Below are positions 894 through 20,211 of a stretch of DNA of 20,211 nucleotides, piece after piece. Below the pieces are notes generated by a model that saw nothing but the letters and a program-made list of their open reading frames with translations, had not been told where the DNA came from and searched no databases. Origin of the DNA: a virus. Where the stretch lies: the IMG/VR virus record IMGVR_UViG_3300045135_000561, positions 1 to 20,211 of that record; one strand, written 5' to 3'. The translations under genes and the position numbers were made by a program. The first letter of the stretch is position 1; every line of letters starts with the position of its first letter.

Positions 894-1233
894 GGTCCAA
901 TATTACGCCGCGAATCTTTGCCGCCAATGCTGCACGCTCTGCCTTGCCTTTCTTGTACTCAGGGTAGCTCTGTGCCTTGATCTTGTTCTTGGTCAGGCGG
1001 TCCTCGTACGCCAGCCGCTTGTGTCCGTACATGCGTTCACACATATCCCAAAAACTACGGGTGTGCTCTGAAACCTCGATGCTGTACGATACGCGCCCGT
1101 TGTTAGCGAGAAAGTATTCTTTCTCCTTTGGATGCGGCCTGTATCTGAGCATAGCCTCGTTCCCATACACTTCGTTGATGATGTAGCGCCGACCGTCGAT
1201 AAGGTCGTGCCAAAAGCGTTCAAGGTCAGTCAT
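850..1233 (-). CDS. hypothetical protein (127 aa)
   Basis: I do not recognise a family. The 127-residue product is rich in aromatic and charged residues in its first half (FWHDLIDGRRYIINEVYGNE) and has a lysine/alanine-rich helical region at about residues 80-110. It ends in an acidic threonine/glutamate tail. Its ATG overlaps the stop of the upstream oxygenase gene as ATGA, and its 3' end overlaps the NinG-type gene by 44 bases, so it belongs to the same operon. A DNA-metabolism role can be guessed from position only. Confidence 0.8.
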   Translation of the reverse strand: MTDLERFWHDLIDGRRYIINEVYGNEAMLRYRPHPKEKEYFLANNGRVSYSIEVSEHTRSFWDMCERMYGHKRLAYEDRLTKNKIKAQSYPEYKKGKAERAALAAKIRGVILDHAQTTEEENTETPA

Positions 1234-1646
1234 AAGAAAAAAAGTAGTACACGACGGTCGCCCGTGTGTGGTTCAACTTTGTGCCGCACGTCACTGGTGT
1301 GATATATCAGCTCGTTTTGATTGAGTCCAAGCGTGAACCCGTCGTAGCATATCCAACCGCCTGCGTACTGCGTAATTTTTGACAGCATCACAATCACGCC
1401 GACTTGACACCACTGCATATGTCCCATTGTGCCTGTGTCGGTGTGCCATTCGTGGCCGTTTGGGTTGCGCTCTACGCACATGTACGCTTTTTCGTGCGGT
1501 CTGACGGGTATGATGGCCGCCAGCTTGTTGATAACGCTTTTCTCGTGTTCGTGTAAGGCGTTTTCGAGCTGTTTGCGCATCCTTACGTTGTCGTAAAAGT
1601 ATTGCAGCTCGTCGTCGCTCAGAAATTGTGTGTGTAGGCGTTTCAT
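1230..1646 (-). CDS. 2OG-Fe(II) oxygenase-like protein
   Basis: This compact 138-residue protein has the signature of the 2-oxoglutarate/Fe(II) double-stranded beta-helix dioxygenases. It shows an iron-binding H-x-D at H68 and D70 (GHEWHTDTG), a distal histidine H122 in DVRHKVEPHTGDRR, and an arginine at 131 or 132 placed to bind 2-oxoglutarate. The strand-rich VGVIVMLSKI and GGWICYDG segments fit the fold. Family members hydroxylate proteins, nucleic acids or small molecules; the substrate here is unknown. The N-terminal 50 residues are helical. Its ATG overlaps the stop of the upstream gene (ATGA). A base- or host-modifying role would be a reasonable guess in a replication operon but is not shown by the sequence. 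Confidence 0.78.
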   Translation of the reverse strand: MKRLHTQFLSDDELQYFYDNVRMRKQLENALHEHEKSVINKLAAIIPVRPHEKAYMCVERNPNGHEWHTDTGTMGHMQWCQVGVIVMLSKITQYAGGWICYDGFTLGLNQNELIYHTSDVRHKVEPHTGDRRVLLFFL

Positions 1647-6899: not shown

Positions 6900-7018
6900 T
6901 GTAGGGCTATTGAGAAAGCTGCAATAAAAATAATGACGTCAGCCACATCACCACGGCCATAAATATAGGCCTTGTATATCATGTTAGCTAAAACTGTGGC
7001 TAAGATAATGTATATCAT
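6896..7018 (-). CDS. 40-residue membrane microprotein, possible holin
   Basis: This short frame encodes 40 residues. A first hydrophobic helix (MIYIILATVLANMIYKAYIY) is followed by a turn, GRGD, and a second hydrophobic helix (VIIFIAAFSIALQ). Both junctions are ATGA overlaps: its ATG with the stop of the tail-tip gene (7015-7018) and its stop with the endolysin ATG (6896-6899). Two helices, small size and a place immediately before an endolysin without a signal peptide suggest a pinholin or class II-type holin. The alternative is a structural membrane peptide. No homology is claimed. Confidence 0.72.
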   Translation of the reverse strand: MIYIILATVLANMIYKAYIYGRGDVADVIIFIAAFSIALQ

Positions 7019-9408
7019 TTTTCCTTTTTCTGGATGATGAACCACTTGCTGTCATGGCACAAGATACTCAGTCCGTCGTAGCTGCGGTCAAAGTCGTAAG
7101 AGGTCGCGCCGTCAATTGTCTCACTGACGTCGTCAGGTCTAATACGCACGTAATTATTTGCAGATATGGTGCTGTCACTTTTAAAGCGTATGATGCGGCC
7201 CTCGTTTCCAGACGTTGGTGGCAAGTTGATCGTGCTGCTGCCATTAGGTCCAGCCCATGAATTAAATATTAAGGTGTCAGTGCTGCGTATATCATACGTC
7301 CCGCCGTCGCGATTTTCGACATCTGTGATTGGCTGCTGCAGAAACCGCTGGAAAATGTTGGGCGGTATGTCGCCTTCTGACGGCGTAAATGTATTGCGCA
7401 AGTCGTACACTGGCTCACTGTCGTCAATCGGCGTGTGGTCGTCTATGATTTCGACGTCTGGCGTGCTCACGTTGGTGTTGTCAGTCGTAATGTGGAAAGC
7501 CTCATATTCAGCCTCAACAGCGCGAGCTAGAAACGATGTTTCAAACGGTAAGAAATTGCGAGTATTGAACAGCAAAGCATGAAACGGACTAACGAACGCT
7601 TTGTAAAAACTGCCGCGCTTTACTCGCGTGCTAAAGTTTTGGCCTGATATTACCTCCTTGACGCCAAGCTGGTGAATGCTCAACGTCGCCGAGCTATTTG
7701 CAAAGCTGGCAAAGCTGTCAACTGGTTGTGCTGGTGAGCTGTTGTTCTCGTAAATGTTGCGGTAATCTTCGAATGCGCTTGATCCAATCACTACCTCGTC
7801 CTGCGTCAGCGTTTCTTGGTTGTTTGCCGTCGTCACGGCCGCATACACTACGCGGTCGCCGTTCGTTGCATTGCCGTTAACAATGTGCATACTAAAGTCA
7901 GACAGCTTACCATATGCGTCTGTGCCTGTTACGTCCGTGATTAGCGTGCCATCGTGGTCGTAACCTTCTACGTTGACCGTAACTGTTACGCCTGTTTGCG
8001 CACTTGTTATGCCATTCAAGTCAATTAGCACGGGTTGATTGTATTGAGCGATGCTTGCAAAGCCTTGCGGCGTGAACGTCATATTGTAGAACAGGCCGTT
8101 GTTCCTGTTTAAATATGCTGGTGTCGGCGTCACGGCAAAGTAGAAATAGCCTGCACTTCCTGACCATGCTGGTGCACTAAACGTCATCGTGTCTAAGGTG
8201 TACGTATCACCAAAATACCCTACATTCACAGTGCTTGGGCCAAAGGTCACCGCGTTGTTGTAGTACAAGCTTCCAACCTTGATTTGCATCTTAAGTAAAA
8301 TGCGTGCAGGAACGTCTTGACCTGTGCTTGTGCCGTCACCGTCATAAGCATGTGTGTACCTAAATCGCAAGCGGAACTCCGTACCGTTATCATACAGCAG
8401 GTTGTTGTCATTTATTTCTGTACCCAGTTCTGTCTGCTGTGATGTAGCATTTAGGAATTGGGTCTTAGGGCCGACCATAGGCAAGTTAGCATCGGTGCGC
8501 CAAGTACGCAGCACTTTATTGAGCGGTGGCAAGAAGGTCTGCACACCGCCGCGCATGCGCACCATGTCAGTGTCGACGGTCAGCTGTGTATCTGTAGCTG
8601 TAGCTGAAGCGCTTACTGTGCCTGCCTTGGTAACAGTGTAAAGGTTGACCGTTGTGCTGTTTATCACAGCGCCAATGGGCACAAAGTAAAAACAGCCCTC
8701 GTGCAGGAACACGCGAGCATTAAACGTGATAGCAAAATTCTTGAGCACTTCGAAGCAGTCCATGCCGCGCGTGCTGCCGCTTTCGTCAATGTTGTAAAAA
8801 GCAGCGTGCCCAACCTCCAGCTCGATCAGCGGGTTGACGCTTGCAAACGTCGTAGGCTTAAAGTCATTGGCATAACGCAGGAACACGTCGGTACTGTCAA
8901 ATACGTGCAGTGCACGCGTTTTATTAAGCAGCTTTACGAGGTGCTCGGCTACGGTGTCGCGGCCTGTGTACAGCGTGCCGTTGTTATCGTAGTTGATATT
9001 TTTAAGGTTGCCCAAGTCGTCCACAGCCGTCATGCTGTTCTGGACTGGGTAGGCTTCATCTTGCAGCTGGACCTGCTCGTGCAGCAGCACGCCAGTCCAG
9101 AACAAAGTGTTAGCGCCGTCAGGGTCCTTGTAAATGCTGACCGAATAGTCGGCATCTTCGCCTGTTGCTAATGCCTCTAAAAACGTCGTGTGCGCTTGTA
9201 CGTTTTCAACGAGCGTAAACGTCATCTCGCTGCCGATGATAGGCTGCATGCGGTCCTCATTGTTGCCGCTGTAGCGTAAGGTAAAGCCGTCAGCGCCGAG
9301 GTTGAACTCGGTCGAGCTGCCAACAAAGCCAGCCTGATGGATGTTGAGTTTGTACGATGTGCCGAGGTCGTCCTGAAACTCGGCGTGTAGACGTATTGGA
9401 TCAGCCAT
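7015..9408 (-). CDS. tail-tip/baseplate protein with fibre-like C-terminus
   Basis: This 797-residue protein follows the tape measure gene, the place of distal-tail and baseplate-hub proteins. The N-terminal 100 residues (RLHAEFQDDLGTSYKLNIHQ onward) resemble beta-rich distal-tail proteins. The middle is beta-rich with many threonine, asparagine and aromatic residues. The C-terminal 120 residues (DGGTYDIRSTDTLIFN, INLPPTSGNEGRIIRFKSD, YDGLSILCHDSKWFII) have the form of a phage fibre or spike tail domain in which a polysaccharide-binding beta structure ends in an IRFK/SDS-type cap. Similar proteins occur in Bacteroidota siphoviruses. It probably attaches the tail tip and helps recognise the host. 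Confidence 0.7.
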   Translation of the reverse strand: MADPIRLHAEFQDDLGTSYKLNIHQAGFVGSSTEFNLGADGFTLRYSGNNEDRMQPIIGSEMTFTLVENVQAHTTFLEALATGEDADYSVSIYKDPDGANTLFWTGVLLHEQVQLQDEAYPVQNSMTAVDDLGNLKNINYDNNGTLYTGRDTVAEHLVKLLNKTRALHVFDSTDVFLRYANDFKPTTFASVNPLIELEVGHAAFYNIDESGSTRGMDCFEVLKNFAITFNARVFLHEGCFYFVPIGAVINSTTVNLYTVTKAGTVSASATATDTQLTVDTDMVRMRGGVQTFLPPLNKVLRTWRTDANLPMVGPKTQFLNATSQQTELGTEINDNNLLYDNGTEFRLRFRYTHAYDGDGTSTGQDVPARILLKMQIKVGSLYYNNAVTFGPSTVNVGYFGDTYTLDTMTFSAPAWSGSAGYFYFAVTPTPAYLNRNNGLFYNMTFTPQGFASIAQYNQPVLIDLNGITSAQTGVTVTVNVEGYDHDGTLITDVTGTDAYGKLSDFSMHIVNGNATNGDRVVYAAVTTANNQETLTQDEVVIGSSAFEDYRNIYENNSSPAQPVDSFASFANSSATLSIHQLGVKEVISGQNFSTRVKRGSFYKAFVSPFHALLFNTRNFLPFETSFLARAVEAEYEAFHITTDNTNVSTPDVEIIDDHTPIDDSEPVYDLRNTFTPSEGDIPPNIFQRFLQQPITDVENRDGGTYDIRSTDTLIFNSWAGPNGSSTINLPPTSGNEGRIIRFKSDSTISANNYVRIRPDDVSETIDGATSYDFDRSYDGLSILCHDSKWFIIQKKEK

Positions 9409-11702
9409 TAGAAACCTCTTACACGATTACGGTCAATTGCATTGCGCTCGCTGGTCAGCAAGATGTCGCGTCCAGAAATCTTACCTGTTACCTGTACCTG
9501 CTGGCCGCCCATCATGTCCTGCAGCTTGCTCAGTGGTGCAATGACCTCAGGGTCAACTCCTGCGCCTTGGTTGTCACCTACCATAGCAAGCGTAGGACCA
9601 AAGGCAAGGCCACCCTGTGCAAGCGCTGGCGGTTTGCTCTCCATTCGTGCCTGCAGGCCTTTGATGACTGCACCAGCTGCTACCAAACCGACACCTGCAG
9701 CAATTGCCGCTGGCGGGTTTGCAATCAGGTTAGCGTAGAATGCCGTCGCAGCTACACCAGCTGCAATGAATTGCGCACCTAAATCAATTAACAGGTTTGC
9801 CAGTCCTGCAATAGCTTGGCCAAACACATCGGCCATGGTCATCGTGCCAGTAATTAGACCAGCAAGGGCCATACCTATGCCCACATATGCCGACTCCATT
9901 TGCGACGCCATGCTTATGCTTATGCCGATTTCGTTATTAAGGTCGCCTTGACTGTCAGCTAAGTCGCTGACGGCAGTACTTGACTGTTGTATTAATTGCG
10001 GCTCAGGTATGCCGTTGTCAGTTGGTTGCAAGCCAGCACCACCTGCACCACCGCCGCCACCTGTAGCGCCAGCAGTTCCTGCTCCGCCGCCACCGAGTGT
10101 TGGTATCAGCTCGGTTAAACCAAACAAAGTTTCTGCTGTTTTTCTTACGCTTTCCTCACTCACCAAGCTGTATGGCTCGCGCTCAATGTGATCCTGTACA
10201 GCCGTATTAAAGTCCTCAGCCGCTTTTTTGCCAAACTCGCTCATGCGATCGACTGCGTTCGAAAAGGCATTGCCAATGGCATCACCAATGGCCGACAAGT
10301 CGCCAGTCATTAGAGCCTGAATGATGGTGCCTAAATCTTGAAAGGCGCCGATGACACTATTGACCGCAAACAAGAAAAAGTCAAACACCACTTGAACGGT
10401 GCCTTGTATGCCACCAATGATGCCACGCACAAGGCCGGATTCATTGTAGAGCGTGATGAAGTAGTTGATGACGTCCGTGATGTATGGCGCAATCTCATCG
10501 GCAAAGGTCACGATGGCAATGCCCAAGCCAACGATGGCGGCAATCACTAAGCCAACAGGCGACAGCAGCATGGTGAGCCCTGAAATAATCGACGGCAGTA
10601 TCACTAACAGCGGACCAATTGCAGCAGCAATAGCTACAAATTTTATGACGCTTTCGCGCGTCTCACTGTTCATGTTGGCAATGCCGCTGGCGAGATTAGT
10701 GATGAATTTGGCTACCTTGTTAACAGTTGGCATCAACGCCTGACCCATTGTAATGCTTGCCGCTTCCGCCGCACTTTGTAAGGCAGCAAAGCCGCCCATC
10801 GCTGTGTCCTCTAATACTTTTCTAGCGTTATTTGCAGCGCCTGAAGAATTCATGAGCTTCGTTTGAAGCTCCGCGAGCTTTTCGCCGTTCTTGCCTAAGA
10901 TTGGTCCAAGAATTGCCGCACGTTTACCAAAGACGTCCATGGCTTCGGTGTAGGATATATTTCCTTTCAAAAGCTGTACGAACGTATCTTTGACTCCGTC
11001 GCCTTCCTCAGCCAATTCTGACAGCGCCATCTTAAACTTGGTCCCCGCATCTGAGCCGCTTATTGCGCTATTCGCAAGCGTACCCAGTACAGCAGTGGTC
11101 TCTTCTAGTGAAAACCCAAATTCGTTGGCTACAGGCCCCGCCACCTTCATAGATTCGCGGAATCGTTCAAGGTCGAGCGAACTGCTACCAAAAGCCGTAG
11201 CCATCACGTCAGCGACTCGGCCTGATTCGCTGGCATCAAGTCCGAATTGATTTAACGTCGATCCGACCGTTTCCGCGACCGCTCCTAAATCCTCATCAAA
11301 AGCGATACCAAGGCTCAACACGCTTTCGGTCATGCTTTCAATTTCCGTGCTACTCTTACCTAACTTGGCAAGTTCCAATTGAAGCGCAGCAACCTCCGAG
11401 GCGCTTTTTGAGGTGCTAGCGCCAAGCTGTTTAGCCTGTTCTTCTAGCCTGCCAACTTCTTCCGCGGTGAATCCGCTGACAGCTTTGACTTTAGCCATCG
11501 CAAACTCAAAGTCAGCTGCAGCCTTTACAGCAAAGCCGCCCATCGCTGCAATGGGTGCGGTCAGGTTGCGTGATAACGATTTGCCCAGCGCTTTGGTGTT
11601 CTTGCCAAACGTGCGCATTTTGCGCATAGCCTTGCCAAGCCCTTTGTCAAAATCGCGCGTTGTTGCGCCTATCGTTACTATGAGATCGTTCAGCTTTGCC
11701 AT
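9408..11702 (-). CDS. tail tape measure protein
   Basis: This 764-residue protein is a TP901-type tape measure protein. Residues 1-50 are basic (MRKMRTFGKNTKALGKSLSRN). The next 270 residues have the family's alanine/serine/glycine-rich helical pattern (FEFAMAKVKAVSGFTAEEVG, TAFGSSSLDLERFRESMKVAG, LGTLANSAISGSDAGTKFKM). Hydrophobic segments follow at about residues 350-400, and a glycine-rich linker lies around 550-570. A second hydrophobic region (about 610-680) precedes a basic end. The length would predict a tail of roughly 115 nm, by the usual 0.15 nm per residue. The start overlaps the chaperone T frame by 13 bases, and the stop overlaps the next ATG (TAATG). Confidence 0.95.
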   Translation of the reverse strand: MAKLNDLIVTIGATTRDFDKGLGKAMRKMRTFGKNTKALGKSLSRNLTAPIAAMGGFAVKAAADFEFAMAKVKAVSGFTAEEVGRLEEQAKQLGASTSKSASEVAALQLELAKLGKSSTEIESMTESVLSLGIAFDEDLGAVAETVGSTLNQFGLDASESGRVADVMATAFGSSSLDLERFRESMKVAGPVANEFGFSLEETTAVLGTLANSAISGSDAGTKFKMALSELAEEGDGVKDTFVQLLKGNISYTEAMDVFGKRAAILGPILGKNGEKLAELQTKLMNSSGAANNARKVLEDTAMGGFAALQSAAEAASITMGQALMPTVNKVAKFITNLASGIANMNSETRESVIKFVAIAAAIGPLLVILPSIISGLTMLLSPVGLVIAAIVGLGIAIVTFADEIAPYITDVINYFITLYNESGLVRGIIGGIQGTVQVVFDFFLFAVNSVIGAFQDLGTIIQALMTGDLSAIGDAIGNAFSNAVDRMSEFGKKAAEDFNTAVQDHIEREPYSLVSEESVRKTAETLFGLTELIPTLGGGGAGTAGATGGGGGAGGAGLQPTDNGIPEPQLIQQSSTAVSDLADSQGDLNNEIGISISMASQMESAYVGIGMALAGLITGTMTMADVFGQAIAGLANLLIDLGAQFIAAGVAATAFYANLIANPPAAIAAGVGLVAAGAVIKGLQARMESKPPALAQGGLAFGPTLAMVGDNQGAGVDPEVIAPLSKLQDMMGGQQVQVTGKISGRDILLTSERNAIDRNRVRGF

Positions 11703-12312
11703 TCGTCGCGCTCTTTAATTGCTTTGATGAGTTCCTGTTTGCTTAATTTTTTTGCGTTCTGCTTTGGTCGCTCCCACGGGAACTGCATCAAATCCTTTGG
11801 TCGCAATTTACGGCCTTTCCGCAGATGGGGCTGCATGTAGATTGTAGCCAGCCATCTAGTGCGCTCCCACTGAAACCGCTCGGCCATCTCTGCCGTCTCA
11901 CGGTTGGCGTCCAGCGCGAGGCTTAACTCGCCAAACGTCATATCCCAGAATGCAGAAGGGGACAGGTGCAGCACACCCATCCCCATCCGTATAACATCAG
12001 GCCATCCAACTGGCTTGTCCTCCCCGTTTACGCTTTTTTTTGGTCGCTGTATTCACCAAGCACATCAAAGCATTGTGTGACGTGTGCAAGCGTAATGTGC
12101 TCCTCGAACTCCTGCAACTCCATGTCGAACTCGACACCTTCGAAGTTGCAGCCGCATTCTACGCCCACAAAGCATAAGAAAGCGCAGGCATCGGCTGAGA
12201 GCTTTGAAGGATCTGATAAGCTAAACACGTTGACTTTCGCCTTGCGTTCAAACTTCTTGAGCGCCTTCATCGAGTAGCGCACAGGGTACTCGTTGCCGTT
12301 AATTTCAATCAT
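11690..12312 (-). CDS. tail assembly chaperone GT (-1 frameshift product)
   Basis: The second chaperone frame ends at 11690 and is open back to the slippery site. A -1 shift at A AAA AAA (12040-12034) joins the first 93 residues of the G protein to SVNGEDKPVGWPDVIRMGMG and then the T domain, giving about 207 residues. The T domain (VLHLSPSAFWDMTFGELSLA, then a helical, basic end with KLSKQELIKAIKERDEW) closely follows the TIGR02216-like tail chaperone pattern W...GLG.L.LSP..FW.MT..EL. In siphoviruses the G and GT forms coat the tape measure protein and recruit tube subunits. The T frame also has its own ATG at 11986, so separate T translation is possible. Confidence 0.82.
12028..12312 (-). 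CDS. tail assembly chaperone G
   Basis: The unshifted product is 94 residues, ending EYSDQKKA. It begins MIEINGNEYPVRYSMKALKK and contains an acidic helical region (FEGVEFDMELQEFEEHITLA). Its place between the tube protein and the tape measure gene, its small size, and a downstream frame reached by a -1 shift are the hallmarks of the G-type chaperone. Its ATG overlaps the TAA of the tube gene (TAATG). Confidence 0.85.
   Translation of the reverse strand: MIEINGNEYPVRYSMKALKKFERKAKVNVFSLSDPSKLSADACAFLCFVGVECGCNFEGVEFDMELQEFEEHITLAHVTQCFDVLGEYSDQKKA
12034..12040 (-). other. slippery heptamer for -1 frameshift
   Basis: Read on the minus strand, the zero-frame codons are CAA AAA AAA GCG TAA. 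The heptamer A AAA AAA lies at 12040-12034, two codons before the G stop. After a -1 slip the next codon is AGC, and the T frame then stays open to 11690. An A8 run directly before the stop of the first of two chaperone frames matches known siphovirus practice. Confidence 0.8.
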
Positions 12313-12734
12313 TAAATAGTGGCCTCAGTTACAGTACCAGTGATTTCAAAAGTAGCGCTATAGGTAGCTGTGTCCTCAGTGCCGCCTGACTGCTCCAAGC
12401 TAGTCAAGAAACCGCTGAAGCTGTACTTCTCATCACCTGGTGTGTTGCTGCTGAAAACCAAAGACAATGATGTGCGGTTCTCCCAAGCTGCGTACAAGTC
12501 CGTGACGTCTTGGTTTGACGCGTCTTGGTAGTCAATCAAACCGCTGACGCTTACAGAACCTGATCGCAAGCCGCCGAGCAGCTCACGGTATCCAGAGGAA
12601 TCTTTGGTTGTGATGTCGATGGTCTCCATGTTGAGAGACAGTGAGCAGTCGGTAGCTGCTGCGATGAGCACGTCAGCGGCTGGTGATCCAGTCGTGATGT
12701 ACACACCCAAATTAGTGCCGTTGAAAATAGCCAT
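12312..12734 (-). CDS. major tail tube protein
   Basis: This 140-residue beta-rich protein has the TP901-1/lambda V-like tube pattern. It begins MAIFNGTNLGVYITTGSPAA with a conserved early strand, has SLSLNMETIDITTKDSSGYRE (the usual loop of tube monomers that precedes a turn), then RSGSVSVSGLIDYQDAS, and ends in SATFEITGTVTEATI. It should polymerise into the tail tube around the tape measure. The gene lies directly before the G/GT chaperone genes, as usual. Its stop overlaps their ATG (TAATG). Confidence 0.9.
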   Translation of the reverse strand: MAIFNGTNLGVYITTGSPAADVLIAAATDCSLSLNMETIDITTKDSSGYRELLGGLRSGSVSVSGLIDYQDASNQDVTDLYAAWENRTSLSLVFSSNTPGDEKYSFSGFLTSLEQSGGTEDTATYSATFEITGTVTEATI

Positions 12735-13100: not shown

Positions 13101-13499
13101 TCAAATATCGTCAATTTCAAACCAACCGTTGTCAATCATATACTGCTGATCCCGAACGGTTACAGTGCTGGGTATGATCGCAGCGAATGGAAAGCTGTGG
13201 CTGTTCAGCACGTATGACTGCAATGCAAACCGCTCGTCTGCTGTCAGCTCTGGAAAAAGGCTCACCAGCTTTTCCAGCGTCGCCTGTTCGTGTACGGGAA
13301 TCATGTACTCCGTATCCACCTGCAAAGCGAATTGTACGCCGTCGGGGTGTTCAATCACACCGAACACCGTCCCGTCCTTTTGGTACGGCTCCTGCACGGC
13401 CAGCGGCGTTGTAATGTTGTAGAGTTCGCGCGTAATTGATTTGGCGCGTTTCTCGCTTGTTAGCGTTCCTTCGGGTAGGACTATGATGTACTGCGCCAT
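13101..13499 (-). CDS. hypothetical protein (132 aa)
   Basis: This 132-residue protein begins MAQYIIVLPEGTLTSEKRAK. It has strand-like segments (GVIEHPDGVQFALQVDTEYM), a helical middle (EQATLEKLVSLFPELTADER) and a strand-rich end (IPSTVTVRDQQYMIDNGWFE). No family is recognised. It follows the large tail-completion/adhesin gene and overlaps it by one base (TAATG). A structural role is likely from position. Confidence 0.75.
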   Translation of the reverse strand: MAQYIIVLPEGTLTSEKRAKSITRELYNITTPLAVQEPYQKDGTVFGVIEHPDGVQFALQVDTEYMIPVHEQATLEKLVSLFPELTADERFALQSYVLNSHSFPFAAIIPSTVTVRDQQYMIDNGWFEIDDI

Positions 13500-16400
13500 T
13501 AGTAGATGCTGTAAAAGGTGTTGATGTTGTCCTCGATGTTCGTGCGGTTGCTTGATTGGTCGGAATTGAAAATTACTATTTCTTGAAATTTTCCGTCATA
13601 AAATAGCGACGCTTGGTTACGTGAAAAGAAATTCAATTCATCTGTCGCGCTTGAATCGCCTAAATCGGAGCCGCTTATTAAACTCCAACTGACCGCGCTT
13701 CCGTTTTGGTATAATTCAGGCGTTGCTTTTGAAATTAAAGTGGCAAGATTTTGATTCGTTCCTATCCAACCGCTTGCGGCATTCCATTTGTAATTGGAAC
13801 TTCGACGGATGTTAAAGGTGTTTCCAGTCGATGCGTGGAAATAAAAACCATCGTTCGAATTCGATGTTTCGCTTTGCTCTAATAAAAAACCTGCTGCAGC
13901 ATCGGGATTTGTTACAATGCAAACAGTCATATATGTATTTAATGTAATTGATGCAACTCTAAAGGAATCACCTGAATTTATATCCATGGCAGGCTTCCCG
14001 TTATCGGTCACCACGCCCGTAGTCCCGTCGTAAATCTTTGGCTGATTCGCCGCCGTCGTTTGCGTCGCGTCTACGCCCGTACCGACTTGCGAGTACCAAG
14101 TTTTTACAAAGCCGTCAGAACTACCGCAGAAGGCCGCCAGTTCTACCGTTGAAAGCTCGCCAAATACATTGAACCCGATGTCAGATTCGGCGTTGTCGCT
14201 TGCCCGTCGTACCCGTATCGCTGACCCGCTGTACGAGCTTGAGAGCTTGCGGAGTGAGTAGGCCGCCGCCGCTCCTGTATACGTGTCGAGTAGTGGCGTG
14301 TTTTGGGTGAAGTAGTCGCCGACGTTGGATTCGATGCTGGTGCGGTCGGTGGATTTGTCGGAGGCGTAGAAAATAAGTTCTTGGTGCTTGCCGTCAAAAT
14401 ATTGTGACGCTCCGCCATTCGTCCACCATCCTATCGCACTATCTCCGCCAATAGCATTCCAATTCTGTACGCCCGTCAATGATAAACTTTGCCCGTCTTC
14501 CCACATAAATACGTCAGTCGCCGCAGTACCCGCACCGTCGTAGATATTGGTGTGCAAGTGTTGGTTAGTATTAACAAGAACCGTGTCGTTGGGCGCGGCT
14601 TTATTTCCAAGTATTGCGCCTTTGGTGTCGTATGAAGTGTTGCCGCTAAATTCTAAACCAAAAACATTCGTGCCTCCTGTATTCTTAACGAAATACGAAT
14701 GCCAAAAATCTGATGTTGCAGGCGAGCTGTTGAGAGCGTAAATATTAAAAGCGGAAATGCCCGACGCAAAATCAAAATTTGAAAAGGTTAGGTAAGTACT
14801 TGCGCCATCAAAACTAACTGCCGCTTGGCCTGCTTCCTTCACAATCGCGCTGCCCGTGTAAATAGTCGGCTGGTTTGCGGCGGTTGCTTGTGTGGCATCA
14901 TTCCCGTTTCCGCTTTGGTCTTTCCAAGTTTGAACCGTGCACGTAGTTCCTGAACAGAAAGTATTGATAGCCGCCTCGTCGATGTTTCCGTTTGAGTCAA
15001 ATCCTATCGTGGTAGTCGTAGAATCGGAAGCCCTACGGATCACCATGCAATCGGTATTATCTCGCTTGAGTTGTCTTACCGAATATGCCGCTGCTGCATT
15101 CTCTCCGTATTGCTCGTCTAGGAGTTTCGCGCTTTGGTAGTACCCCGAAACATTGCCCTCGATGGATGTTCTGTTGGTGCTTTTGTCGGATTGCCAAATA
15201 ATTAACTCTTGATAATCCACCTGTGTTTCGTTTGAACCCGTAGAAAACGCTCCTATCCTTATGGGGTCAAGGCTGCTAATTGCGCCCTTTGTAAAACTCG
15301 AACCAATAGATGCGCTATTTTTATAAAATTGCGCGTTTGTTGTATCGGTGTAGAAACTGATAATATTTTGGTTCGTATCAGCAGATACTGTTGAGGTTAC
15401 ACCTCTATAATGCAAGTCCCAATTACCTGTAGTATTATTCCAAAGGACATACAATTGCTCATTAGGTTTTCGCGAAATCGTTGTGCTGACCTGACCGCCA
15501 GCAACATTTTCAAATTTCTGTACTGTACTGACTGCAATGTTCGTTGTGCTTATTGTTAACGCGCTGTCCAAAAAATCGTCACTTCCATCAAATTGCAACG
15601 CCAAACGCCCGCCATCTTTTACCAAGGCTCCCCCCGTGTAGATAGTCGGTTGATTCGCTGGTGTCGTTTGGCTTGCGTCGTTACCGCTTCCCGTCGCTCC
15701 GCTTTGGCTTTGGTCGTGCCACACCTGTACCGTACACGTAGTGCCAGTACAGAAGGTTGTAATAGCTGCCTCATCGATGTCTTCACCATCGAAGCCAATC
15801 GTTGTGGTCGTGCCGTCCGAAGCTCTGCGGATAGTCATGCAAGCCCCCGTGTAATTTCCATTCAAGCGACGGGTTCCGTATGCCGCCGCAGCTCCGCTTC
15901 CGTACGATTCATTCAGCAAGCCCGTGAACGTGGGAGCTTCCGCTACCTCCTCCCACGTCATTTTCAGGCTAATAGGAACCGTGCCGCCTGTGCGTGCCTT
16001 CAGGTACGCAAGCAGCGTAGCCTTGGCGCTTGCATACGTCGTGTCATCAGCGATGTCTGCAAATTGCGTCCAGTCGCCGCTGGTGTTCGGATCGGCCTGC
16101 GCCTTCTCTGCATAGTACAGCTTTCGGCGAATGTCAAAGCCCGTTGTTGCCGTGTCCGTCTGCGCGTCTTCGTGCAGTCCGTCGCCGTCAGCCTGTGCCG
16201 TATAGTACAGTTCCACCGTTTCCGTAGCGCCGTCCAGCAGAGTTTCCGCTTCGCTGTCGTAGTTGCCTGTGTATTGCTCACCATTACGGCCAACGATTAG
16301 CGTGCTGTTTTGCCATGTGCCCGACGCCGAATCATATTGCAAATAGTCATTGTCAGCAAGGCCGCTGATGGTTACGTCCGTCAGCTCGCGCAAATTGTCG

Positions 16401-17083
16401 GGCGCTGCATCTAGTGCCGCCTGTAAACCCGTTACGTTGCTTATCGCGATGTTGTCATTCACGAACTCGCCGCCGCTGTAAATGAGCACCTCACCGTCGC
16501 TCGGTAGGCTTACACTTGCATCGCTTAGGTCGCTCAGTTCGTTAGCACCTCCTGCGTCATTCGCTGGCTCCCAGTTGCCGCTCGTGCTGTTGTATGCGAT
16601 TAGCTGACCGTTCGTAACTCCAGTCACATCCACGTCGCTCAGATCACCAAGCACCGCACCCGTCACTGGCGTTCCCAGAGCAATGGTCACGTCGTCGCGC
16701 TTGATGCGAAAGGTGAACGTCAGCACCTGACTGTAGCGGCGTGGGTCGTATTCAATGTTCACGTCGACGTCATTGAACTGGATGCTTTCAACGTGCACGC
16801 CGTTGTATGTGCCGCTCACACGATCGAGTGCAGCACGGACCGCCACACCCAAGTCAGCCGCCGCATTGTAGCTGTCAGCGTAGCACAGAAATTCAAAGCG
16901 TACCTCATCGAGCTTCGACGGTCCATCGTGCGTGTCGTCTGGGTCTACGCTCTGCAACTGGTACACGACGAACGGCACAGCGGTCTCCTGCTCTGCAATC
17001 TCTGGAAAGATGTTAGTGCCTACAATGTCAGTGACGCCGCTGTTGGCGCTAAGAATACCATATACTGCCTTTCCTGCGTTCAT
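13499..17083 (-). CDS. tail-completion-like protein fused to fibre-like region and three GH54-like modules
   Basis: This 1194-residue protein has three parts. Residues 1-130 resemble DUF3168 tail completion proteins (MNAGKAVYGILSANSGVTDI, EQETAVPFVVYQL, RYSQVLTFTFRIKRD). Residues 131-390 are low-complexity fibre-like sequence with repeats of the form LSDLSD...GQLIAYNSTSGNW. Residues 389-650, 654-928 and 931-1194 are three copies of one module. Each has AAAAYxxRxL, IRRASDxTTTTIGFD, TFCxGTTC, a DQSGxGNDA-like stretch and ANQPTIY, then a beta-rich half ending in a DGKxQEIVxF-type strand. As I recall, fungal GH54 arabinofuranosidases share GSD-TTTTI, FCANTTC and YDQSG, so sugar binding or cleavage is likely. 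The gene is ATGA-linked to the gp10-like gene. Confidence 0.78.
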   Translation of the reverse strand: MNAGKAVYGILSANSGVTDIVGTNIFPEIAEQETAVPFVVYQLQSVDPDDTHDGPSKLDEVRFEFLCYADSYNAAADLGVAVRAALDRVSGTYNGVHVESIQFNDVDVNIEYDPRRYSQVLTFTFRIKRDDVTIALGTPVTGAVLGDLSDVDVTGVTNGQLIAYNSTSGNWEPANDAGGANELSDLSDASVSLPSDGEVLIYSGGEFVNDNIAISNVTGLQAALDAAPDNLRELTDVTISGLADNDYLQYDSASGTWQNSTLIVGRNGEQYTGNYDSEAETLLDGATETVELYYTAQADGDGLHEDAQTDTATTGFDIRRKLYYAEKAQADPNTSGDWTQFADIADDTTYASAKATLLAYLKARTGGTVPISLKMTWEEVAEAPTFTGLLNESYGSGAAAAYGTRRLNGNYTGACMTIRRASDGTTTTIGFDGEDIDEAAITTFCTGTTCTVQVWHDQSQSGATGSGNDASQTTPANQPTIYTGGALVKDGGRLALQFDGSDDFLDSALTISTTNIAVSTVQKFENVAGGQVSTTISRKPNEQLYVLWNNTTGNWDLHYRGVTSTVSADTNQNIISFYTDTTNAQFYKNSASIGSSFTKGAISSLDPIRIGAFSTGSNETQVDYQELIIWQSDKSTNRTSIEGNVSGYYQSAKLLDEQYGENAAAAYSVRQLKRDNTDCMVIRRASDSTTTTIGFDSNGNIDEAAINTFCSGTTCTVQTWKDQSGNGNDATQATAANQPTIYTGSAIVKEAGQAAVSFDGASTYLTFSNFDFASGISAFNIYALNSSPATSDFWHSYFVKNTGGTNVFGLEFSGNTSYDTKGAILGNKAAPNDTVLVNTNQHLHTNIYDGAGTAATDVFMWEDGQSLSLTGVQNWNAIGGDSAIGWWTNGGASQYFDGKHQELIFYASDKSTDRTSIESNVGDYFTQNTPLLDTYTGAAAAYSLRKLSSSYSGSAIRVRRASDNAESDIGFNVFGELSTVELAAFCGSSDGFVKTWYSQVGTGVDATQTTAANQPKIYDGTTGVVTDNGKPAMDINSGDSFRVASITLNTYMTVCIVTNPDAAAGFLLEQSETSNSNDGFYFHASTGNTFNIRRSSNYKWNAASGWIGTNQNLATLISKATPELYQNGSAVSWSLISGSDLGDSSATDELNFFSRNQASLFYDGKFQEIVIFNSDQSSNRTNIEDNINTFYSIY

Positions 17084-17595
17084 TTTACTCGTGTTGCGTT
17101 TACTGTCTTTGCTATTTCCTTGCGGTACTGCTCGCGCATCTTGTCAAATGCCTTCGGTGCAGCTGCTGTGATGGATTTGAAAAACACGTCCTTGTTTCGG
17201 TTGCTGCCCTTGATGAACTGGTCGTCACCTTCTACGATGTTAGCAAACCAGCCGTCCTCGTCTACTGGTGCGCGGCGGCCTACTTGTGGCCCGACCCAAT
17301 ACGAGTTGTGCTGATTGTCTATCAGCCAAACCTTGACCGACCTGCGCAGCGTACCGACTGGAATATCCATCTTGTAAGGCTTGCCAAAGGTCTCACTGCG
17401 CGCGGTGTGTCCACGTCGCAGGCGAATCGTCTCACGCGCATCGCGGATGTTGCCGATCATCTCCTTTTTGATGACGTTGCCAGCCGCGCGGTGAATCTTG
17501 CGCTGCGTCTTGCTATCCCTGATATGCTTGGCAATCTCTTTGAACTGCTTTTCAAGCGGCGTCGTGTGTGCAAATACTGTAGCTTTCCGTGCCAT
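17080..17595 (-). CDS. HK97 gp10-like neck/tail component
   Basis: From the ATG at 17595 the product is about 171 residues. The N-terminal half is basic and helical (FKEIAKHIRDSKTQRKIHRA, GNVIKKEMIGNIRDA), followed by GTLRRSVKVWLIDNQHNSYW and GPQVGRRAPVDEDGWFANIV. The GTLRRS and WVGP-type segments match the HK97-gp10 family, which helps join tail to head. The ATG shares one base with the stop of the head-closure gene (TGATG); the longer frame back to a TTG at 17616 is less likely. The stop is joined to the next ATG as ATGA. Confidence 0.82.
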   Translation of the reverse strand: MARKATVFAHTTPLEKQFKEIAKHIRDSKTQRKIHRAAGNVIKKEMIGNIRDARETIRLRRGHTARSETFGKPYKMDIPVGTLRRSVKVWLIDNQHNSYWVGPQVGRRAPVDEDGWFANIVEGDDQFIKGSNRNKDVFFKSITAAAPKAFDKMREQYRKEIAKTVNATRVK

Positions 17596-17927
17596 CAGGT
17601 GCCAGTGATTTGACAAAGCAAAACCAGCTGGTCCTGTCGGCCAACCTCCTCAATGCCTTGGATGTTGTAATACTTCGAATTGTACACCACGCGGTCGTCA
17701 GCCTTGATGCCTCGGCTGTCGCTGCTGCTGCGAACCTTAAACCGCACGCGCTGAATTGGCATGTCTTGGTTAGTGCTGATGCGCTCGGTCATACCTTCGC
17801 CCGTCTTCATCAGCTCGGCCCATACGGTCAGCAAGGTGCTCCACGTCTGCACGCGCTCGCCGTATGCGTTCGTGCTCGTGGTGTATCGCTCCACCGTTAT
17901 GCGTCGGTCGCTCTTGCCTATTCTCAT
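17595..17927 (-). CDS. head closure / head-tail adaptor protein
   Basis: This 110-residue protein matches the SPP1 gp16-like head-closure family. It begins MRIGKSDRRITVERYTTSTN, the usual strand with a basic start, and continues AYGERVQTWSTLLTVWAELM, then RFKVRSSSDSRGIKADDRV and YNSKYYNIQGIEE. The family forms a ring below the connector that closes the head. Its ATG overlaps the upstream stop (ATGA). Confidence 0.9.
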   Translation of the reverse strand: MRIGKSDRRITVERYTTSTNAYGERVQTWSTLLTVWAELMKTGEGMTERISTNQDMPIQRVRFKVRSSSDSRGIKADDRVVYNSKYYNIQGIEEVGRQDQLVLLCQITGT

Positions 17928-18496
17928 CGGTCAGAAATTACGCGGTAAGGATTTAGCAAGCTGTGGATCAGGTTCGGCACCTCTGCTGTGCTTGTGCCTA
18001 CTACCACGATATTTCGGTTCTCATAGAAGTGTGCGACCAGCAGCTTGACCGCATGAATCAAACCGTCGGGCACCTCGGCCTCAAGGTAGCCAAGTTCCAT
18101 CGTCACCTGCACGCCGTTGCTTGTATCTGGATGCACAGTTGGCGGTGAAATGGTGGTGATGCGTGCTGGCTTGCGCTTGAGGTCGCTGTAGTAGTTGTCC
18201 GTGCTCAAGGTTAGCGTTGTGCTCGGCGTGTTGTTGTAGACGATGCTTGTGATGCTGCGCACAGGACCCACAGGAATTTCCCACGTACCACGGAACTCGT
18301 CGAGATACATGACCGCCGTAACGTCGCCGAGCTGTACGTTGCAATAATTCTGCACGTACTCGATGGCCGCACTGCGTAGCGCCTCGATAAGCGTGTCCTC
18401 ATCGCTGTGGTCTACGCGCAAAAATGTCTTGAGGTCGGCGGTGCTGACAATGCTGGCCTCGGCAGCTGCGCCAGTAATCTCTAAAGTGTAGTACAT
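17924..18496 (-). CDS. gp6-like head-tail connector protein
   Basis: This 190-residue protein begins MYYTLEITGAAAEASIVSTA and has the gp6/DNA-packaging connector pattern in LKTFLRVDHSDEDTLIEALR followed by SAAIEYVQNYCN. Its C-terminal part includes DGLIHAVKLLVAHFYENRN, a helical segment that fits the ring-forming fold. It should sit on the portal. It is the first gene after the capsid terminator at 18508-18540. The next gene begins within its stop (ATGA). Confidence 0.88.
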   Translation of the reverse strand: MYYTLEITGAAAEASIVSTADLKTFLRVDHSDEDTLIEALRSAAIEYVQNYCNVQLGDVTAVMYLDEFRGTWEIPVGPVRSITSIVYNNTPSTTLTLSTDNYYSDLKRKPARITTISPPTVHPDTSNGVQVTMELGYLEAEVPDGLIHAVKLLVAHFYENRNIVVVGTSTAEVPNLIHSLLNPYRVISDR

Positions 18497-18560: not shown

Positions 18561-20211
18561 TTACGCGTCAGCGCCCAAGATAGTATCCTGTGCGAATACC
18601 ATAGCACCGAGTGATCCAGCGCGTCGGACTTTTGCGTCAAAGAAAGTGTCCACAACAATCTTAACAGTTCCAGCTGAGATGCCAGAGAATGGATCGACAG
18701 TTACGTCGAGGCCGCCCCAGTTAGCGTAAAACAAATCAGTCCAATCACCGTAGTACAAGAAACGCAAAGCTGAACCGTTTGAACCAAATGCTACATCTTC
18801 TGCGTTGCTCAAGAACTCAGAAGCGTAGACAGCAGTGGCGTCGATAGAAGGAACAGAACCGCTTGACAGTACATTGTAGCCAAACATGTTGCCGTTCTCA
18901 ACCAAAGCGCTTACGCTTGACACGTTAGCAAGGCCCATCAAGTAAGCCAAGTCACTTGGGTGAGCTACGAACTGCGTGTTATTCTCTGCACCGTTTGCAG
19001 TGATTGTGCTCCACAAGTCGCGAACGTTGTCAGCAGTCAATGCTGGAATGTCGTTGTCGCCAGCTTCAAGACGGCCTACAACCGTACCAGTTTGACCAGC
19101 CAAAGCAGTTGCACCACCAACACCGTGAATGCTGTTCAAAGCAATTTTGTCTTGAACATTTGCGATAGATCGGCCAAAATCAGCAGCGATAACTGCAGAC
19201 ATGTTGCCGTTCGTTTGGTTGATGGCCTCCTTGGTGACAATCATCTGCTGTGCGATGCGAGCAGGCGACAAAGTTTGTGAACCCATTGACCCAGTGTTGC
19301 CGCTGATAGCTGCTGCTTCTGCTGGCTCTTCTGCCGCGTCAGTTGGCAGTGATGGCATCTTGATGTCACCAACAAAGCCGTTGAGCTGAGTGGCGCCAGT
19401 AGCTGCCAATATTGAGTTAGAACGCAAAGCGCCAACCAATGCGGTTACTTCAGTGGCTACAGTTGTGACACCGTCATCAACTGAACCGCCTGCAGTTGTG
19501 CCGTATACGTTACGAGCTTCAATCAACATTGACTGTGGAATGCTGAAATCGCCGCGCAAGCCGAGGCCCAAAGCGCTGGCTTCCTTGCGTGCTTCCTGCA
19601 TCACCTCCTTTTCGAGGCCAGTCACGCCGCCTTGTGCAGCTTCGCGCAAAGCCTTACCAAAGTCAAACTTGGCGTTTGCCTTGATTGCCTCCTTGTCGCT
19701 TCGTACAACGGCATCTTGTGCAACGGCACGAGCCTTGAGGCGCTGTTCGTTTTTTGACAAAGCGTCGCGCTGCTGTTCAGCTGCTTCGAGCTTCGCGTGA
19801 ATGTCTTGCGTCTCTTCCAATTCTTCAGAAGTCAACGCGCGCTCCTCGGTTTCTGCGAGGGCGTTGATGTTCGCCAACTTGTCCTCAAGCTGAGAAACGT
19901 AGCGGGCCGCATCATTTGAGTTGCGAAAATTCATAATCTTAAATTGTTTTGCGGTCTTCTCCGCTGTTTGCTCAAAGGTACGCACTTCCTGCTTTTCAGG
20001 TTGCGCCTCTGAAATCGTTTGAGTTTCTTCTACTGGCTCAGGCTTTTGCTGCGCCATTTCCCGCGCTGCCACGGAGGTCGTAGGGTACGCGGCATACGTC
20101 ACTGGGCTTACGTCTAGGAGCCTAGCCATCTTTACCACCTTGCGCACGCTGCGGTCCTCGCTCCACTCTTGTTCGGCAATCGTGAATGCAAAGGATGACT
20201 GCGTGATGTCG
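18561..20211 (-). CDS. prohead protease-major capsid protein fusion (5' end outside window)
   Basis: The frame has no stop up to base 20211, so its start lies beyond the window. The visible N-terminal part reads DITQSSFAFTIAEQEWSEDR, then KMARLLDVSPVTYAAYPTTS and VAAR, the C-terminal half of the HK97-type (S78) prohead protease; the serine in SSFAF may be catalytic. After a proline/glutamate linker comes a charged coiled coil (RYVSQLEDKLANINALAETE through about DALSKNEQRLKARA) that fits the delta-type scaffold removed on maturation. The mature HK97-fold capsid follows: SIPQSMLIEARNV, PSLPTDAAEEPAEAAA, LSPARIAQQMIVTKEAINQT, and an end with VKIVVDTFFDAKVRRAGSLG. A GTG at 20147 is not a true start. 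A terminator follows. Confidence 0.92.
   Translation of the reverse strand, partial: DITQSSFAFTIAEQEWSEDRSVRKVVKMARLLDVSPVTYAAYPTTSVAAREMAQQKPEPVEETQTISEAQPEKQEVRTFEQTAEKTAKQFKIMNFRNSNDAARYVSQLEDKLANINALAETEERALTSEELEETQDIHAKLEAAEQQRDALSKNEQRLKARAVAQDAVVRSDKEAIKANAKFDFGKALREAAQGGVTGLEKEVMQEARKEASALGLGLRGDFSIPQSMLIEARNVYGTTAGGSVDDGVTTVATEVTALVGALRSNSILAATGATQLNGFVGDIKMPSLPTDAAEEPAEAAAISGNTGSMGSQTLSPARIAQQMIVTKEAINQTNGNMSAVIAADFGRSIANVQDKIALNSIHGVGGATALAGQTGTVVGRLEAGDNDIPALTADNVRDLWSTITANGAENNTQFVAHPSDLAYLMGLANVSSVSALVENGNMFGYNVLSSGSVPSIDATAVYASEFLSNAEDVAFGSNGSALRFLYYGDWTDLFYANWGGLDVTVDPFSGISAGTVKIVVDTFFDAKVRRAGSLGAMVFAQDTILGADA

Follow-up and report, generated by a model that had tools for sequence, protein, structure and literature searches.

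A tail terminator and three GH54-like modules in one open frame

The viral record IMGVR_UViG_3300045135_000561 of IMG/VR was examined over positions 1 to 20,211, a stretch that we call the window. On its minus strand a single open frame (13499..17083) encodes a protein of 1,194 residues that joins a tail terminator domain to three GH54-like modules, with matches to PF11367, phrog_347, PF09206 and phrog_10356. A sequence-only reading had proposed such a fusion of a tail-completion-like domain, a fibre-like stalk and a triple GH54-like adhesin. The fusion is borne out by one PF11367 and three PF09206 stretches in one frame; the coordinates were correct and the strand is minus. The frame runs for 1,194 codons without a stop, and the plus strand there is rich in stops. 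No internal ATG with a usable Shine-Dalgarno sequence was found inside the gene, and the record, a virus fragment of 20.2 kb, has one copy of the fused protein.

The terminator domain (residues 1-133, 16685..17083, minus) is followed by a fibre-like linker with repeats of the type LSDVDVTG..GQ...Y (residues 134-262, 16298..16684, minus) and by a conserved region of 123 residues, MID (residues 263-385, 15929..16297, minus), which accompanies GH54 modules on several anchors described below; linker and MID together correspond to the stalk. Next come module 1 (residues 386-652, 15128..15928, minus), module 2 (residues 653-926, 14306..15127, minus), recognized by self-similarity and by PF09206 with its best stretch at 664-767, and module 3 (residues 927-1194, 13502..14305, minus), for which the best stretch of phrog_10356 is 933-1192.

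Residues 5-127 match PF11367 (Tail_completion_gp17) at 2.3e-13 (50.8 bits, curated cut-off 24.5), and the N-terminus matches phrog_347, tail terminator, at 1e-17. An AlphaFold2 model of residues 1-652 was built with segments of 65 relatives. Its residues 1-129 match 6tba_4A, a chain of a gene transfer agent (GTA) virion, with Z 15.6, a root-mean-square deviation (rmsd) of 2.7 and 126 residues aligned of 134; by its length, which matches that of the terminator in PMC10747895 (6te9, 134 residues), this chain is presumably the GTA terminator. Statements cited to papers and structure entries, here and below, refer to the portions of those sources that were available. Viral models in BFVD named tail completion protein also match residues 1-129, with target TM-scores up to 0.88. 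Residues 1-130 therefore fold in the model as expected of tail completion proteins. The family name given earlier stands for PF11367, with a small correction: the PHROGs term is tail terminator, and 'tail completion protein' also names another protein. Searched as a single sequence, the fused protein matched no solved structure. The terminator domain alone matched only one unannotated record in the phage collection, and phage records searched at the DNA level for distant relatives yielded a single short match, close to the end of the query, in one unannotated record. A further BFVD match, the 'gp14 neck protein' of cyanophage metaG-MbCM1, was considered as a precedent and set aside: the gene is 7,230 bases long, the record has a separate Hc2 and the name is doubtful.

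The fusion is conserved among viral contigs

When 2.9 million viral contigs were searched at the protein level, 57 loci were returned, and a terminator-domain search, which was seeded with fused members and hence biased toward them, supplied the best 80 of 228 relatives. All loci collected contain 93 distinct open reading frames (ORFs) with the terminator domain, the window included, and every one that contains its stop is at least 384 residues long. They end mostly in one to three GH54 modules, the others in unrelated fibre tips. Among 30 chosen proteins with the terminator part, PF11367 and phrog_347 were present in all 30, partly by selection, and PF09206 in 21. Terminator proteins with non-GH54 tips matched PF11367 as well (10/10 scanned), one of the tips resembling Lcl_C at 1.8e-4, below cut-off. 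Sequence comparison found the linker repeats in at least one copy among relatives, and identity jumps where the linker begins. Collagen-like stalks, which would force trimers, occur in 0/93 terminator ORFs and 0/76 ORFs of a second kind, anchor B (see below). The fusion is real, conserved and unusual.

Fifteen records were searched whole. Thirteen contain PF11367, once each and always in a fused frame of 670-1,067 residues, three of these frames having non-GH54 tips (L174, L185 and L193); L030 and L038 gave no PF11367 match. In three further records of this kind, which we call the neck type (L431, L363 and L345), the only PF11367 match was again in the fused protein (3/3), and in L415 the gene is cut. 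No standalone second PF11367 terminator was found in the neck-type records with a match (13/13 and 3/3), which are fragments and do not wholly exclude a distant second terminator gene. The N-terminus of the L030 protein matches a terminator weakly (phrog_347 0.019; E 4.9e-5 over 54 columns); it is likely one and was not counted.

Two variant arrangements were seen. Three contigs encode a GH54 module of 253-262 residues in a gene of its own, immediately downstream of the gene for a terminator-fibre protein that has no GH54 part (L189:5462-6250, L196:5666-6427 and L198:2383-3156), possibly a separate tip subunit. Two adhesins of this kind occur on one contig in L044:4713-6548 and 7323-10181, both with collagen-like repeats and near a portal gene, and also in L019:3495-4154.

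The fused gene fills the terminator slot of a neck operon

In transcription order, on the minus strand, the window first has a prohead protease (PF04586) and an HK97-type capsid protein (PF05065) in one frame (18561-20210, 5' end open). It continues through the head-tail adaptor Ad1 (17924..18496; PF05135 6.1e-13, phrog_442 7.5e-30), the head closure protein or stopper Hc1 (17595..17927; PF05521 2.5e-15, phrog_25 2.9e-17) and, upstream of the terminator, an HK97-gp10/Neck1-like gene (17080..17616; phrog_5 5.5e-4, Pfam 0.0096 and below cut-off). The fused terminator is followed by a gene of 132 residues, X13101 (13101..13499), whose start is coupled to the adhesin stop, then by a small gene and by the major tail (tube) protein (12312..12734; PF06199 9.1e-15, phrog_1407 7.4e-24). 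After the tube protein come two small genes, the first of them in the chaperone position, the tape measure protein (9408..11702; PF10145 1.9e-35, phrog_1533 1.2e-80), a presumed distal or tail-tip protein of 797 residues (Dist, 7015..9408), so named from its position after the tape measure, with no Pfam family and here without GH54, and a gene that we take, from its sequence, to be endolysin-like. The fused gene occupies the terminator slot between the Neck1-like and tube genes of a normal neck operon, and Pfam and PHROG scans revealed no other terminator gene in the window.

The protease-capsid fusion also occurs in relatives L429, L345 and L363, as ORFs of 603-658 residues. Farther along the window, 1230-1646 (minus) has by its motif pattern the look of what is presumably a 2-oxoglutarate/iron oxygenase.

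Colinear relatives carry the cassette on the presumed tail-tip protein

In seven colinear contigs (L247, L414, L386, L377, L395, L429 and L403), MID and GH54 lie at the C-terminus of a protein of 1,057-1,100 residues encoded directly after the tape measure, in the Dist position; X13101 comes next and, on contigs that extend far enough, the endolysin-like gene. The N-terminal part of this protein matches the window Dist in five of the seven; L377 and L395 are assigned by position only. PF11367, detected in 5/7 of these tip-type records and in neither of the other two, which are fragments, is in all five a standalone gene (132-134 residues), with the order Ad1-Hc1-Neck1-terminator-tube as in the neck type. 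The fused domain is matched at 1.9e-23 by the standalone terminator of L324. In the fused-terminator loci, Dist proteins that contain their stop (757-797 residues, or split into 632 + 130) never carry GH54. Because Dist in fused loci lacks GH54 and the tip types have a plain terminator, the adhesin appears to have been moved and not added. To judge from gene content, a swappable adhesin cassette has been relocated between the tip of the tail and the neck; this could possibly have been one event, in either direction. The predicted placement of the modules at the neck is strengthened by synteny, by the lack of a second PF11367 gene and by these plain-terminator relatives with the cassette on the tail tip.

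The split form of Dist (L017:9818-12105 and L024:12484-14771) consists of ORFs of 632 and 130 residues that overlap by a few bases, like a frameshift or a gene split. The small gene after X13101 (12886-13104) has a homologue after Dist in other loci (L010:12277-12510) and may have moved with the cassette.

X13101 is paired with GH54 tips and records exchange of anchors

Homologues of X13101 were found in 131 ORFs; with repeats removed, 87 lie after a GH54-ended protein and 11 at a locus start. X13101 follows a GH54-ended protein in 87/87 testable distinct cases and never a non-GH54 tip. Among complete terminator proteins, 42 are GH54-tipped with X13101, 16 other-tipped without it and four too near the edge; the corresponding counts for complete anchor-B proteins are 24, 10 and five. 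The three loci with a separate GH54 gene (L189, L196 and L198) have no X13101. Searches of Pfam, PHROG and PDB gave no convincing match for X13101 and its relatives. Given its place and its strict pairing with GH54, it is probably a dedicated partner, either chaperone or cap, in the assembly of the GH54 tip.

Anchor B is an N-terminus (MITFNN...), present in about 261 viral contigs, that carries the same cassette; the 76 distinct ORFs with it include L038:7386-10424 and L031:4321-7515, and it was never seen short. Anchor B was considered as a second terminator, which we do not claim: its AlphaFold2 model has a predicted local distance difference test (pLDDT) score of 42.6, a profile comparison gave E 0.14, and no phage record matched.

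The fused protein is mosaic. L022 is identical to the window at 46% of the terminator, 86% of the linker and 99% of MID; for L143 the values are 95%, 67% and 35%. When 88 X13101 proteins were placed on a tree (131 columns, with many forks unresolved) and labelled terminator, B, tip or other, the anchor had to change no fewer than 16 times, compared with 35.5 for shuffled labels, and well-supported branches force seven changes of the terminator label. Terminator and B anchors are thus frequently exchanged.

The modules have the GH54 fold without a conserved catalytic carboxylate

PF09206, the family of the GH54 catalytic domain, recognizes the three stretches at 2.4e-27 (96.3 bits, cut-off 25), and phrog_10356 ('virion structural protein') matches the modules at 4.2e-32. 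The modules lie head to tail, are about 270 residues each and share 31-40% identity (BLASTP 1e-29 or better). The model of module 1 matches the arabinofuranosidase AkAbfB (6sxt_A) over its full length, with Z 23.5, rmsd 2.8, 251 residues and 20% identity, and GH54 enzymes top all its structure matches. The GH54 similarity that had been read from the sequence is upheld by both the family match and this fold match; nothing beyond family resemblance backs a specificity for arabinose. The next-ranked folds, the tailspike of cyanopodophage Pan3 (9vyh; Z 17.7, rmsd 3.4, 222 aligned), trypanosomal sialidases (about 17) and clostridial toxin binding domains (about 16), reflect the general sandwich fold. 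The Pan3 protein is a phage attachment protein of similar fold, but it is a podovirus tailspike with 12% identity.

AkAbfB (1wd3, 6sxt) shares the whole catalytic-domain fold, but its catalytic glutamate, E221 (title of 6sxr), has no conserved counterpart here. Among 234 distinct modules the conserved columns are the first ~105 and the last ~35 residues; the middle, where E221 must fall, is variable and has no column with Asp or Glu at 75% or more, and the catalytic carboxylate is therefore not conserved. A profile from 30 modules matches AkAbfB at 2.7e-13, significantly only over profile positions 14-83. The acid/base Asp of AkAbfB, which we take to be D297, stands opposite a non-acidic column, though only in a non-significant segment of the alignment. 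With no catalytic carboxylate conserved, lectins are a likelier identity for the modules than arabinofuranosidases. We conclude from these columns that the family overall has not been kept as an enzyme; single members could be active.

The phrog_10356 profile itself joins an Hc1-like part to a GH54 part: the window Hc1 matches positions 4-107, and modules of isolates and of the window match ~281-639. This suggests stopper-GH54 fusions elsewhere; a search for such a fusion protein found none.

Cultured phages and known neck structures

Some isolates have GH54-like genes, never on a PF11367 protein (PF11367 in 0/10 records searched, R7M included). The gene lies in the neck or proximal tail cluster in five of nine isolates (KBS-S-2A, REQ2, Giantsbane, Fizzles and CL131), being just before Hc1 in KBS-S-2A and two genes after the terminator in REQ2, both weak matches; it lies elsewhere in S-CBS4, Lucky10, Eileen and Bolt007 (4/9). 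An alpha/beta hydrolase or esterase gene directly follows the GH54-like gene in the actinophages REQ2 (L065, 5581-7523) and Fizzles (L061, 5473-7706).

The neck passage structure of lactococcal phages (936, P335; TP901-1 ORF51) resembles the fused protein in being neck-attached and elongated and in combining a conserved N-terminus with carbohydrate-binding modules that can be swapped at the C-terminus, but it is a separate protein at the portal or adaptor beside a normal terminator, whereas here the arm belongs to the terminator (PMC6669499, PMC10747895). The fibres of Anabaena phage A-1(L), gp82-gp81-gp80, also extend from the neck and bear a distal carbohydrate-binding module; they differ in consisting of three distinct proteins on a neck ring of 15 subunits, in a phage that has a contractile tail and a separate terminator (PMC10966104). 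The fused gene departs from this neck passage and whisker pattern, in which the neck protein is encoded apart from an intact terminator: here the fused gene is the only terminator seen. The terminators of RcGTA, T5 and TP901-1 agree with residues 1-133 in fold and gene position, but they are small proteins; for some larger terminators, sheath-binding, sheath-related or duplicated domains are reported, not adhesins (PMC11784142). The evolved Dit and major tail proteins of lactococcal phages are likewise structural tail proteins extended by a binding module, but other proteins and modules are involved, and the available text of PMC6669499 reports no move to the terminator. The literature searched, in which subscription titles are largely uncovered, describes no terminator-adhesin fusion. 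Within these searches, anchoring on the terminator and the move from tip to neck are new; neck fibres with carbohydrate-binding modules are known, as separate proteins.

A terminator with a probable adhesin arm

We consider it probable (about 0.8) that the gene encodes a phage tail terminator with a C-terminal adhesin arm at the neck. By analogy with other siphophages, residues 1-133 would fold as a terminator and assemble into a ring of six subunits that caps the tail tube beneath the stopper. Linker and MID would lead outward from each subunit, or from trimeric bundles, giving two to six arms, and three GH54-fold modules per chain would bring a virion to as many as 18. These modules are probably lectins with ligands among the glycans of the host or its matrix, because the cassette sits on the tail-tip protein in relatives, tips exchange whole and the module has a hypervariable middle. 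It is a more tentative proposal, one we hold at somewhat less than even odds, that MID-GH54 and X13101 form a portable two-gene receptor-binding cassette that has moved between tip and neck; the main adhesin of the window's lineage would then sit atop the tail, and the phage would first touch its host from the neck or side, not from the tip.

Several points weigh against a terminator with a neck adhesin. The AlphaFold2 model (residues 1-652) has a mean pLDDT of 72, good in the terminator and most of module 1 and poor in the linker; well-supported branches of the X13101 tree, which comes from a short alignment, force a change of the tip label just once; and a profile search of 84,980 species genomes for a host gave 187 pattern matches and no relative. 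R7M has whiskers, and the gene suspected to encode them, ORF28 (PMC8265664), is 3,465 bases long and distinct from a normal terminator gene of 423 bases. The arm could also be cleaved after assembly. Modules of the 936 neck passage structure bind cells weakly as GFP fusions, and the neck collar of TP901-1 is reported to be non-essential (PMC6669499); the terminal module (gp80) of the five A-1(L) neck fibres did not bind the host (PMC10966104). Because neck modules elsewhere bind weakly or not at all, the arm may, by analogy, not serve primary host recognition.

These results would fit a neck arm that is a decoration sticking to matrix, particles or flagella, or that steers other fibres as T4 whiskers do. 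However, the neck cassette replaces the tail-tip one and does not supplement it, and tips are swapped in the manner of receptor-binding proteins; we regard such a decoration as doubtful. That the modules are active GH54-type enzymes, arabinofuranosidases or other glycosidases cutting host polysaccharide from the neck, would agree with the whole-length fold and profile matches to AkAbfB and with the annotation of relatives in Gordonia and Aphanizomenon phages as arabinofuranosidases. It is nevertheless improbable in view of the short significant stretch of the profile match, the missing acidic column and the presence of three diverged modules per protein, which fits avidity better than catalysis. 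The terminator domain might instead be a mere assembly tether, the protein being cut after assembly or its N-terminus not residing at the neck. Anchor B, with the same cassette on an unrelated-looking N-terminus, indicates that many anchors are tolerated, but the fused domain is the only terminator per record and in the canonical place, and tip-type relatives have a normal terminator instead, so a tether is very unlikely. An assembly artefact joining two genes, for which we found no support, is extremely improbable given the same fusion in dozens of contigs from different samples.

Automatic annotation by the N-terminal (terminator) or the C-terminal (arabinofuranosidase) domain alone misses half of each such protein. 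The usual view is that siphophages locate their host with the distal end of the tail. In the window the predicted adhesin is on the cap at the near end of the tail, a small assembly protein, and colinear relatives have the same adhesin at the tip, so that the two arrangements offer a natural comparison on whether a neck fibre can stand in for an adhesin at the tip. The finding also bears on how receptor-binding cassettes jump between structural proteins and on how a terminator copes with an added arm of about 1,000 residues.

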